A stretch of 33,272 bases of DNA from an uncultured Paludibacter sp. Lineage in GTDB: Bacteria > Bacteroidota > Bacteroidia > Bacteroidales > Paludibacteraceae. Under the pieces are notes generated by a model, which saw nothing but the letters and a program-made list of their open reading frames with translations, made no database searches and was not told the DNA's origin. The translations under genes were made by a program, and so were the position numbers. The stretch lies in the NCBI GenBank assembly GCA_937870645.1, contig CALMZF010000035.1, positions 1-33,272 on the forward strand, given 5' to 3'. Of the stretch, positions 15,864 to 18,151 are shown one piece after another (positions within the stretch are counted from its first letter, which is position 1; each line of letters begins with the position of its first letter).

Positions 15864-16469
15864 ATGTTTTCAGGAATAGTAGAAGAATCGGCCACTGTTG
15901 TAGCATTAGTACCCGAACAGGAAAACCTGCATCTGACTTTGAACTGTTCGTTTGTCAACGAATTGAAAATTGACCAGAGTGTATCACACAACGGAGTTTG
16001 TCTGACGGTAGTGAGCAAAACTGCCGATACTTACACCGTAACAGCCATAAAGGAAACGCTGGAGTGCAGCAATCTGGGTAAATTGAAAGTTGGGGATAAG
16101 GTAAATGTGGAACGCAGCATGGTGATGAATGGTCGTCTGGATGGTCATATCGTTCAGGGACATGTAGATCAGACTGCCTGGTGTACCCGCATCGATGAAG
16201 CCGATGGCAGCTGGTATTTCACCTTCGAATATGAATTTGATCAGGCCATGGCCCGCAAAGGCTATATGACGGTGGACAAAGGCTCGGTTACTGTCAACGG
16301 TGTAAGTCTCACGGTGTGCAATCCGACCAACAATAGTTTTCAGGTGGCCATAATCCCTTACACTTTTGATCACACCAATTTTGGTCAGATTGCTGTTGGA
16401 ACTTACGTAAATATTGAGTTCGACATTATCGGCAAATACATCAGCCGTATGCTCGAATTTAATAAATAA
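15864..16469 (+). CDS. ribE: Riboflavin synthase, alpha chain
   Basis: 201 residues in two homologous lumazine-binding halves. The enzyme turns two molecules of 6,7-dimethyl-8-ribityllumazine into riboflavin and a pyrimidine by-product, and works as a trimer. The N-terminus MFSGIVEE is the family start. The first half has NGVCLTV and LGKLKVGDKVNVERSM, with DGHIVQGHVDQ at the start of the second half. The second half repeats the pattern with VNGVSLTV and FDHTNFGQIAVGTYVNIEFD, ending in GKYISRML. The other rib genes are not in the window. I see no FMN riboswitch upstream. A strong terminator follows. Confidence 0.96.
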   Translation: MFSGIVEESATVVALVPEQENLHLTLNCSFVNELKIDQSVSHNGVCLTVVSKTADTYTVTAIKETLECSNLGKLKVGDKVNVERSMVMNGRLDGHIVQGHVDQTAWCTRIDEADGSWYFTFEYEFDQAMARKGYMTVDKGSVTVNGVSLTVCNPTNNSFQVAIIPYTFDHTNFGQIAVGTYVNIEFDIIGKYISRMLEFNK

Positions 16470-16505
16470 CCGTATTTCAGACTATTTACAGCACAATTTT
16501 GAACT

Positions 16506-16543
16506 ATCCTCAATTTATTTTGTTCTACGAATAAATTGAGGAT
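16506..16543 (+). terminator. Terminator after ribE
   Basis: A perfect 14-bp inverted repeat (ATCCTCAATTTATT, 16506-16519, and AATAAATTGAGGAT, 16530-16543) with a 10-base loop, followed by TTATTTTG. It separates ribE from the membrane-Nudix gene. Confidence 0.75.
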
Positions 16544-16592
16544 TTATTTTGTCCTTAAATAGAGTTTATCACGTTGATTGTTACTGTTGAAA

Positions 16593-17777
16593 ATGGACGA
16601 ATTAAAAAAGCAAATCAAAGACTCTTTTTTTAATCCAATACTATACTTTTTGCCGTTACTGATTTTTTTTGTAGTGGATGATATGTTTGGATTAAATATG
16701 GCCTGGAAAATTTCCTTCCCCGTTGCTCTGGGTCTTGTGTTTTACGTTTACCTGAGTTATAATCGCTTGTTTTTGTGGCATTTAATGCTTTCGGTAGGAT
16801 ATGTTCTTATCGGACTTATTGTCAGTCTTATTCCCGCCAGGTATGAAATGAGAGGATTATATCAGTTTGCCGACGAATTTTTATTCCTCGGGATGATGTG
16901 CTTTTTTATTTTCCGAAAGTCATTCCTGGAAAAAGTTGCAAGCAAAGCCTTACCATACGAAATGCCGATGTCAAATAACGTGAATGAACTTTATCGCATC
17001 GTTAAGTATCTTATGGTTATCGTTTCAACGTATATGCTTGTCCGGGTTTTGTACTTTTTTGGCATTATCAATATGACTGAAAATCAGTTGCAGGATATCC
17101 AAATGGTTTATTACTATTGTTTCATTGTGTTGGGACTTTACGAAACCATTCGTGTGCTTATCGTACGTTATCGGTTGCTACACGAAGACTGGCTTCCGAT
17201 AATTGACGATAAGGGAAAGGTGACAGGAAGCAGTCAGTATTTTCATGATCTTACAGAAAGAAAACACATGCATCCGGTGGTCAGGCTGCATTTTATTGAC
17301 AATGGTGTTATCTTTCTTCGGCAACGGAAATCCCATGACAACACTGATGCCTCACTTTGGGATACACCTGTGAGCCGCCATGTTCGTTTGGGCGAATCGG
17401 TCGAACAGAGTTTACGATATAAATCCAAACAATACTATAACATCGAACCAAAGAAATTCTTTTTCCTCACAAATTACAAACTTGAGAATAAGTCCGAGTA
17501 TCAGTTTGTATATCTGTTTGTGTTATGCAAAATAGATGGCATTGAACTCAATAAGGATAAAGTACAGGCTACCAAATGGTGGACTGTAAATCAGATTGAG
17601 GATAATCTCAACACAGGTATTTTCACCGAACGATTTATAAAGGAATTTGAATTGCTCAAGAGGAGCGGACTGCTCGAACACGAAAGTTGTAATTGTGAAT
17701 GTGCACTGAAAGGCATGATTAAGAGCCGTTTAATTGACGGAAATACCGGAAGAGGCGCACAGAATTCAGCCTGCTAA
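16593..17777 (+). CDS. Six-helix membrane protein with C-terminal degenerate Nudix domain
   Basis: About 394 residues from the ATG at 16593 (a TTG five codons upstream is less likely). Six hydrophobic segments are seen in the first 205 residues, for example PILYFLPLLIFFVV, ISFPVALGLVFYVYLSY, WHLMLSVGYVLIGLIVSLI, FLFLGMMCFFIF, YLMVIVSTYMLVRVLYFFG and YYYCFIVLGLYETIRVLIV. The C-terminal half has a Nudix-like plan: WLPIIDDKGKVTGS, HPVVRLHFIDNGVIFLRQR, SLWDTPVSRHVRLGES, ending in a KWWTVNQIEDNL segment. The Nudix box itself is degraded: after RLGES the residues read VEQSLRYKSKQYYNI and lack the REUxEE metal ligands. A binding or sensing role rather than hydrolysis is an inference. The last 30 residues contain CNCEC. 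The 3' end overlaps the convergent DUF454 gene by 4 bases. Confidence 0.82.
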   Translation: MDELKKQIKDSFFNPILYFLPLLIFFVVDDMFGLNMAWKISFPVALGLVFYVYLSYNRLFLWHLMLSVGYVLIGLIVSLIPARYEMRGLYQFADEFLFLGMMCFFIFRKSFLEKVASKALPYEMPMSNNVNELYRIVKYLMVIVSTYMLVRVLYFFGIINMTENQLQDIQMVYYYCFIVLGLYETIRVLIVRYRLLHEDWLPIIDDKGKVTGSSQYFHDLTERKHMHPVVRLHFIDNGVIFLRQRKSHDNTDASLWDTPVSRHVRLGESVEQSLRYKSKQYYNIEPKKFFFLTNYKLENKSEYQFVYLFVLCKIDGIELNKDKVQATKWWTVNQIEDNLNTGIFTERFIKEFELLKRSGLLEHESCNCECALKGMIKSRLIDGNTGRGAQNSAC

Positions 17778-18151
17778 GGTTTCACTTTTATTTTCGTGGG
17801 AAATGATAATATATATATGCTTACACCCAAAGCAATACCCGCAAGCATTACCTGCAAATACCATTTTTCATTGACAACAAAAAAAATGCTGTACAACATT
17901 ACCAACCACATGGTGCTGATGGATAAAATCTTTATATTAAGTGGTATGGACTTATCTTCTCTGAAACTGCGAATATATTCACCAAATATCTTGTGATTCA
18001 AGAGCCAGTCATATAGCTTCTGAGAACTGCGGGCATAAAGAGCAGCTGACAAAAGCAGAAAAGGGGTTGTTGGCAGGACAGGCAAAAAAACGCCAAGAAT
18101 AGCTAAACCCAAGCAGATGGAACCGAGTATGACGAGTAATATTTTTTTCAT
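17774..18151 (-). CDS. DUF454 (YbaN-like) inner-membrane protein
   Basis: 125 residues, the normal length of this family. The conserved N-terminal signature is clear: GSICLGLAILGVFLPVLPTTPFLLLSAALYARSS, with the PVLPTTPF motif, then LYDWLLNHKIFGEYIR. Hydrophobic segments lie at about 4-24, 26-42, and two near 75-118. The function of the family is not established. The gene is divergent from ettA and its 3' end overlaps the membrane-Nudix gene. Confidence 0.9.
   Translation of the reverse strand: MKKILLVILGSICLGLAILGVFLPVLPTTPFLLLSAALYARSSQKLYDWLLNHKIFGEYIRSFREDKSIPLNIKILSISTMWLVMLYSIFFVVNEKWYLQVMLAGIALGVSIYILSFPTKIKVKP

Follow-up and report, generated by a model that had tools for sequence, protein, structure and literature searches.

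A YciB-like membrane protein with a degenerate Nudix domain in Paludibacteraceae, a candidate ligand sensor or regulator

Nudix domains that sense a ligand rather than cut it are already known, in animal TRPM2 and in bacterial NrtR. NrtR is a soluble protein that carries a DNA-binding domain; YfcD and IPP isomerase are also soluble proteins, and the site of type I IPP isomerase is formed by a catalytic cysteine and five metal ligands. To our knowledge, Escherichia coli YciB carries no Nudix domain. E. coli YciB has been said to act together with DcrB in membrane fluidity (PMC9487459) and has been described as a toxin receptor (PMC11630599). YfcD was listed as undetermined in a survey of the clan (PMC5389931), and a further study placed it among nucleotide sugar hydrolases that were assayed on protein-bound ADP-ribose (PMC4680915). 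The NUDT9-H domain of TRPM2 was described as having a canonical box in invertebrates and a vestigial one in vertebrates (PMC6461439), and the Nudix domain of NrtR regulators has been assigned to ligand sensing (PMC4666351). Neither a YciB-Nudix protein nor a bacterial membrane Nudix pseudoenzyme was found described in the titles and abstract openings of the open-licence PMC papers listed by our searches.

We analyzed a window of 33,272 nucleotides from an uncultured Paludibacter sp. (contig CALMZF010000035.1 of assembly GCA_937870645.1), in which one gene encodes a membrane half joined to a Nudix half (Table 1). The window protein shares its Nudix fold with YfcD (2FKB; VIA-align Z 20.0, 158 residues, 2.1 A) and with IPP isomerase (Z 19.3), and the conserved H..H..GH..ExE positions of its intact relatives align with the isomerase; unlike these enzymes, it lacks the box glutamates and carries serine at the position of the isomerase cysteine. 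Its N-terminal half is, by way of intact fused proteins, a diverged relative of YciB/IspA (PF04279), although the window protein itself gave no direct match to this family (Pfam, E up to 1). Like TRPM2, it is a membrane protein with a C-terminal Nudix domain, whereas it has no TRP ion-channel domain (Pfam lists NUDIX alone, E up to 1). The NrtR structure 3GZ8 was also matched (Z 14.4), and the use of a Nudix domain in ligand sensing is a further possible likeness; in contrast to NrtR, no DNA-binding domain was found in the window protein, for which Pfam gives NUDIX alone and the model gives membrane helices, a Nudix domain and a short helical tail.

Table 1. Positions of the gene, its parts and its upstream elements in the window
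Feature	Coordinates	Strand	Basis or remark
Riboflavin synthase (RibE), upstream neighbour	15864..16469	+	NF006767, 217.5 bits (cut-off 155)
5' element: AACTAT..TTTGTT motif (16502-16524) and hairpin (16506-16543)	16502..16543	+	ends 49 bases upstream of the start codon
Whole gene: YciB-like membrane half and degenerate Nudix half	16593..17777	+	394 aa; ATG at 16593, stop at 17775-17777
Residues 1-197: diverged YciB/IspA (PF04279)-type domain, six membrane helices	16593..17183	+	model helices, profile-profile match
Residues 198-358: YfcD / IPP isomerase-type Nudix fold	17184..17666	+	profile and structure matches
Residues 262-284: degenerate Nudix box	17376..17444	+	only the GX5E glutamate (E268) retained
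Residues 366-370: CNCEC tail	17688..17702	+	alignment of the window's group

Architecture of the protein

The first-pass annotation had described a six-helix membrane protein fused to a Nudix domain, and this layout was borne out by an AlphaFold2 model calculated from a 60-row alignment of the window protein and 59 named relatives (mean pLDDT 87.1, pTM 0.73). In the model, long helices extend as far as residue 196 and are followed by a Nudix-type alpha/beta domain at about residues 199-358 and by a final helix, with residues 385-394 at a pLDDT below 50. The domain boundary had been placed near residue 205, which was close, and about 198 fits better. An alternative upstream start, TTG at 16578, would add 5 residues. 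The Nudix part is suggested to face the cytosol because clusters of lysine and arginine, read from the sequence, lie at the N-terminus, in the linker between helices 4 and 5, and behind helix 6. NCBIfam gave no match to the window protein. A chance or mispredicted reading frame was ruled out by matches in 128 of 200 genomes of the window's family, which we take to be Paludibacteraceae, together with low dN/dS; chance is also unlikely because the Nudix domain is conserved and 68 relatives share the loss of the box.

Model-based comparison confirmed that the C-terminal half has a predicted Nudix fold resembling YfcD and IPP isomerase, an affinity that the first-pass annotation had not named. Foldseek of the model against the PDB placed E. 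coli YfcD (2FKB) at the top (E 3.7e-10), so that the check proposed in the first-pass annotation found the Nudix fold present, and a profile search matched the same entry (E 3.6e-7). Pfam NUDIX (PF00293) scored 14.5 bits on the window protein, below its cut-off of 21.1 bits, and was found in 36 of the 60 rows of the relatives' alignment (E <=0.01; best 2.3e-9). The protein can be placed in PF00293 by its fold, and the box GX5EX7REUxEExGU is not present in it. A phmmer search of the window protein against the PDB returned nothing but matches to a potassium channel, at chance level (best E 0.57).

The membrane half is, by profile comparison, assigned as a diverged YciB-type domain linked through intact fused relatives, a point that was likewise absent from the first-pass annotation. 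At E 0.01, PF04279 was not found in any of the 60 aligned relatives' rows, and it matched no protein across the window's own genome. All 13 intact full-length relatives matched both NUDIX and IspA/YciB (PF04279), and a membrane-part profile of the 54 rows in the window's group matched that of these 13 with a probability of 98.1% (E 6.7e-14) when the window protein was present in one alignment only, while a reversed-sequence control gave 0.34%; a separate comparison with the window protein in both alignments is inflated. YciB ancestry is supported because the intact relatives match PF04279 and the profiles agree, whereas the reversed control does not. Matches covering only the YciB-type membrane half (model positions 1-190), in apparent frames of 189-202 aa, were seen in three other genomes (G053:C40, G657:C435 and G711:C263).

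The degenerate box and its clade

Searching genome contigs with the single window protein returned no relative, and an alignment used as the query instead yielded 62 named loci. Relatives from the same order were of three kinds: intact full-length fused proteins, Nudix-only proteins (frames mostly of about 170-230 residues), and degenerate full-length proteins of the window's kind. Among other genomes of the class, related matches were IPP-isomerase-like and carried the cysteine (17 rows, L155-L171), and the families lie near each other. Residues were counted over non-identical rows, after removal of identical sequences had reduced 144 rows to 116 and fragments below 340 aa (L117, L120 and L121) had been omitted; positions marked here with an asterisk follow the numbering of L002, in which H264* and E269* correspond to H263 and E268 of the window protein.

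The absence of the REUxEE residues, as first annotated, holds: the R-E-U-x-E-E-x-G columns read Y276 K277 S278 K279 Q280 Y281 Y282 N283, with all three REUxEE glutamates substituted. A complete REUxEE was found in all 13 intact fused rows and in all 17 soluble rows outside the isomerase-like set, and in none of the 54 rows of the window's group or the 15 rows of its sister group; conservation mapping, proposed earlier, shows the box to be degenerate throughout the clade. Within the window's group, the box glutamates persist as E278* in 1 of 54 rows, E281* in 33 and E282* in 3. The window protein does not have E281*, and some members of its group could still hold metal, given that this glutamate is retained in 33 of them.

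When aligned with the isomerase structure 1OW2, H220*, H227*, H264*, E303* and E305* of the intact rows fall on isomerase columns that we take to be the metal ligands of the type I enzyme, and all five are present in the 13 intact fused rows. The window protein lacks the complete set of cysteine and five ligands, showing S261 for the cysteine, a gap at H220* and Q304 for E305*. In its group, H220* was found in 1/54, E303* in 46/54 and E305* in 2/54, and H227* (54/54), H264* (50/54) and E269* (53/54) were largely kept, as were W256 and D257 in window numbering (54/54 each). The 13 intact rows share 33 invariant Nudix positions, of which the window's group retains 12 (in at least 90% of its 54 rows); 9 are intermediate and 12 are lost. 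The retained set includes H227, W256, D257, H263, E268, Y295, W330 and E351 of the window protein. Among the lost positions are two box glutamates (of three) and two metal positions of the isomerase type (of five). Position 231, a histidine in intact rows, is an arginine in 53/54 of the window's group and 14/15 of the sister group. The sister group shows further losses in the pocket (H264* in 2/15, W257* in 0/15) and keeps W330 and E351 in 15/15 each. The CNCEC tail, a candidate metal-binding segment, exists as annotated: C368 and C370 (CxC) occur in 50/54 rows each and C366 in 44/54, conservation of CxC is limited to the window's part of the degenerate clade, and C312 (51/54) joins C368 and C370 as a cysteine that marks the group.

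In a tree of 103 Nudix domains, from which 13 of the 17 isomerase-like rows were left out and whose root was placed at the midpoint only, the 69 degenerate rows formed one clade (support 99/93), in which the 54 rows of the window's group (99/98) separate from the 15 of the sister group (100/95). This one old clade rules out the freshly decayed single gene as an explanation. The first-pass annotation had named homologues with an intact box as evidence against a non-cleaving protein, and such homologues do occur, as all 13 rows of the intact fused set; they lie in other lineages, with none among the 69 rows of the protein's own clade, which argues for descent from an enzyme and leaves the idea standing. 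The soluble rows were interspersed with the intact fused ones (5 label changes) and formed no single group, and degenerate sequences could possibly attract each other (long-branch attraction); with these features and the midpoint root, any sequence of fusion, fission and loss read from this tree would be provisional. From close pairs within the window's part of the clade, median dN/dS was 0.084 for the Nudix domain (10 usable of 14 pairs), 0.096 for the membrane part (13 pairs), 0.136 for the box region (12 pairs) and 0.134 for the tail (8 pairs). The box region is somewhat more relaxed, and the Nudix domain as a whole is not.

Gene neighbourhood and soluble homologues

A survey of the neighbours of homologues, which had been proposed earlier, showed riboflavin synthase as the adjacent, co-directional upstream gene in 42 of the 51 named loci of the window's kind (L060-L110), an association not foreseen in the first-pass annotation. 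Including the window, the gap between ribE and the gene is 73-123 bases in 36 of 43 cases and longer in 7, and the genes past riboflavin synthase vary (LD-carboxypeptidase, RelA/SpoT, phosphoglycerate mutase, PEP carboxykinase). No riboflavin synthase was found beside sister-group genes in the loci inspected; dipeptidyl peptidase IV lies upstream there, often with lipoyl synthase, in 9 (L111-L114, L116-L119 and L121) of the 10 named loci L111-L119 and L121, and in all 6 unnamed loci for which upstream sequence exists (L135-L140). The flavin link thus characterises one family, since this neighbour was not found in the sister group, and may be regulatory, functional or merely inherited. On the other side, a small membrane protein of the DUF454 (YbaN) type, at 17774-18151 on the minus strand, is convergent with the gene and overlaps its stop, and its cluster occurs in 22 of the 62 named loci.

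The AACTAT..TTTGTT pattern of the leader has a single match in its own genome, and 15 of the fetched loci contain one match each, the window itself being counted three times among them (L001, L152, L199). In six near relatives, 96.4% of the cells of the 14-pair hairpin pair, and 4 of the 14 pairs have changed on both sides; RNAalifold on 22 leaders gave no consensus fold, the hairpin being supported in the six near relatives only, and Rfam over the window reported tRNA only and none for the leader element. The hairpin was considered as a mere terminator of ribE and this was ruled out, as L061 and L064 keep it behind another upstream gene. The leader element goes with the Nudix gene because these two of the six, without ribE upstream, retain it.

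A soluble homologue with an intact box, also new relative to the first-pass annotation, was surveyed across genomes. Among 393 genomes of the order, for which a completeness of at least 95% was requested, 60 show a full-length match with a score typical of the intact fused form (E 1.5e-115 or better) and 84 a strong match confined to the Nudix part, and none was listed with both, against 12.8 expected (this value and the Fisher values assume independence and ignore relatedness). The box was read as intact in the sequences of 14 members of each list, the others being assigned by score or by Nudix-only coverage; the list of 84 includes two longer frames (G059, 313 aa; G163, 394 aa), the listing covers matches down to 1.4e-62, so that a weaker soluble copy in some of the 60 is possible, and G058 (apparently split over two contigs) and the partial or divergent G053, G657, G711 and G752 were left out of both lists. 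In the order sample, 9 of the 12 genomes with a degenerate gene also hold a soluble copy, a count that excludes the window's genome and G087, where the match to residues 181-365 sits in a 384-aa frame. The same is true of 0 of the 14 genomes with an intact fused gene (E <1e-10), two of which show a weak second match (E 3.6e-6 and 4.2e-4). Within the window's family, 36 of the 50 genomes having a full-length match better than 1e-40 contain a second match and 14 do not, and six more family genomes have full-length matches at 1e-26 to 1e-32. All 20 second copies read from the 36 genomes were soluble with an intact box. No soluble copy was found in the window's own genome (94% complete), and a soluble partner is not obligatory, because 14 of the 50, the window's included, show no second match. 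The sole over-threshold NUDIX match of that genome (L198, G000:C37:3151-3516) belongs to a protein of 231 aa that, by eye, resembles an NrtR-type regulator.

Proposed role and rival readings

We favor, with confidence slightly better than even, the view that the window protein is a neofunctionalised membrane-anchored Nudix pseudoenzyme acting as a ligand sensor or regulator. Its computed basis consists of the fold, the ancestry of both halves, the loss of the catalytic set, the single clade, the purifying selection and the genome pattern. The ancestral Bacteroidales protein probably carried a YciB/IspA-type six-helix domain fused to a YfcD/IPP-isomerase-like Nudix hydrolase, and was probably a membrane-tied enzyme, because 13 full-length relatives retain an intact box. 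Catalysis would have been lost in one lineage, apparently once; most genomes of that lineage also hold a distinct soluble homologue whose box is intact, and the remaining membrane protein has been maintained under strong purifying selection. Its putative cytosolic pocket most likely still binds a ligand without cutting it, the candidates being whatever the soluble enzyme uses as substrate or releases as product, or some other nucleotide or diphosphate, and the ligand-bound state would alter the YciB-like half or a partner bound to it. Of the receptor or regulator reading in the first-pass annotation, there is good support for a fold that was retained while its catalytic set was lost, and a role in binding or regulation follows as the most likely continuation; we infer the absence of catalysis, the cytosolic side, the binding of a ligand and the coupling to the membrane half.

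The most economical account has the ligand-bound state act on the membrane half. Its main rival is a scaffold or subunit, in which the dead domain would associate with the intact soluble enzyme and tether or tune it at the membrane, ligand binding being secondary. This rival, which we regard as unlikely, gains from the genome pattern (0 of 393 genomes listed with intact-type fused and soluble genes together, a soluble copy with the degenerate gene in 9 of 12, a second match in 36 of 50, and 20 of 20 copies read as intact), and is weakened by the 14 of 50 genomes, the window's among them, in which no second match appears. The additional pocket losses of the sister group fit poorly, on the alignment, with one conserved ligand. 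Together with the retention there of the fold residues W330 and E351, they are consistent with a structural remnant, in which the Nudix domain would serve a YciB-like membrane protein solely in folding or dimerisation; since the Nudix dN/dS is as low as that of the membrane part (0.084 vs 0.096), and H227, W256 and D257 (54/54), H263 (50/54) and E268 (53/54) persist in the window's group, we consider such a remnant quite improbable.

An enzyme that still works through a non-canonical metal or catalytic site appears very doubtful. The GX5E glutamate and two histidines are present in the window protein, and the isomerase-like rows, presumably members of a family with enzymatic activity, carry arginine at 278* (16/17); those rows, however, hold E281* and E282* (17/17) and the cysteine, where the window protein has Q280, Y281 and S261, and it further lacks all three box glutamates and has Q304 in place of E305*. 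A bolder version of the sensor view would make the protein an independent counterpart of TRPM2, arising when a fused enzyme split into a soluble hydrolase and a dead membrane sensor, which would read the substrate metal-free, through the loss of glutamates and the arginine gained at 231, and signal to the YciB-type domain; in Paludibacteraceae a flavin or redox tie is possibly added by the riboflavin synthase neighbour and the cysteine tail. We put this forward tentatively, as a rather improbable extension.

The sensor or regulator reading would place in bacteria a membrane family with intact relatives, apparently one loss and a soluble counterpart, in which the step from enzyme to sensor could be followed. 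The family would also offer a way into the YciB-type membrane domain, which is poorly understood.
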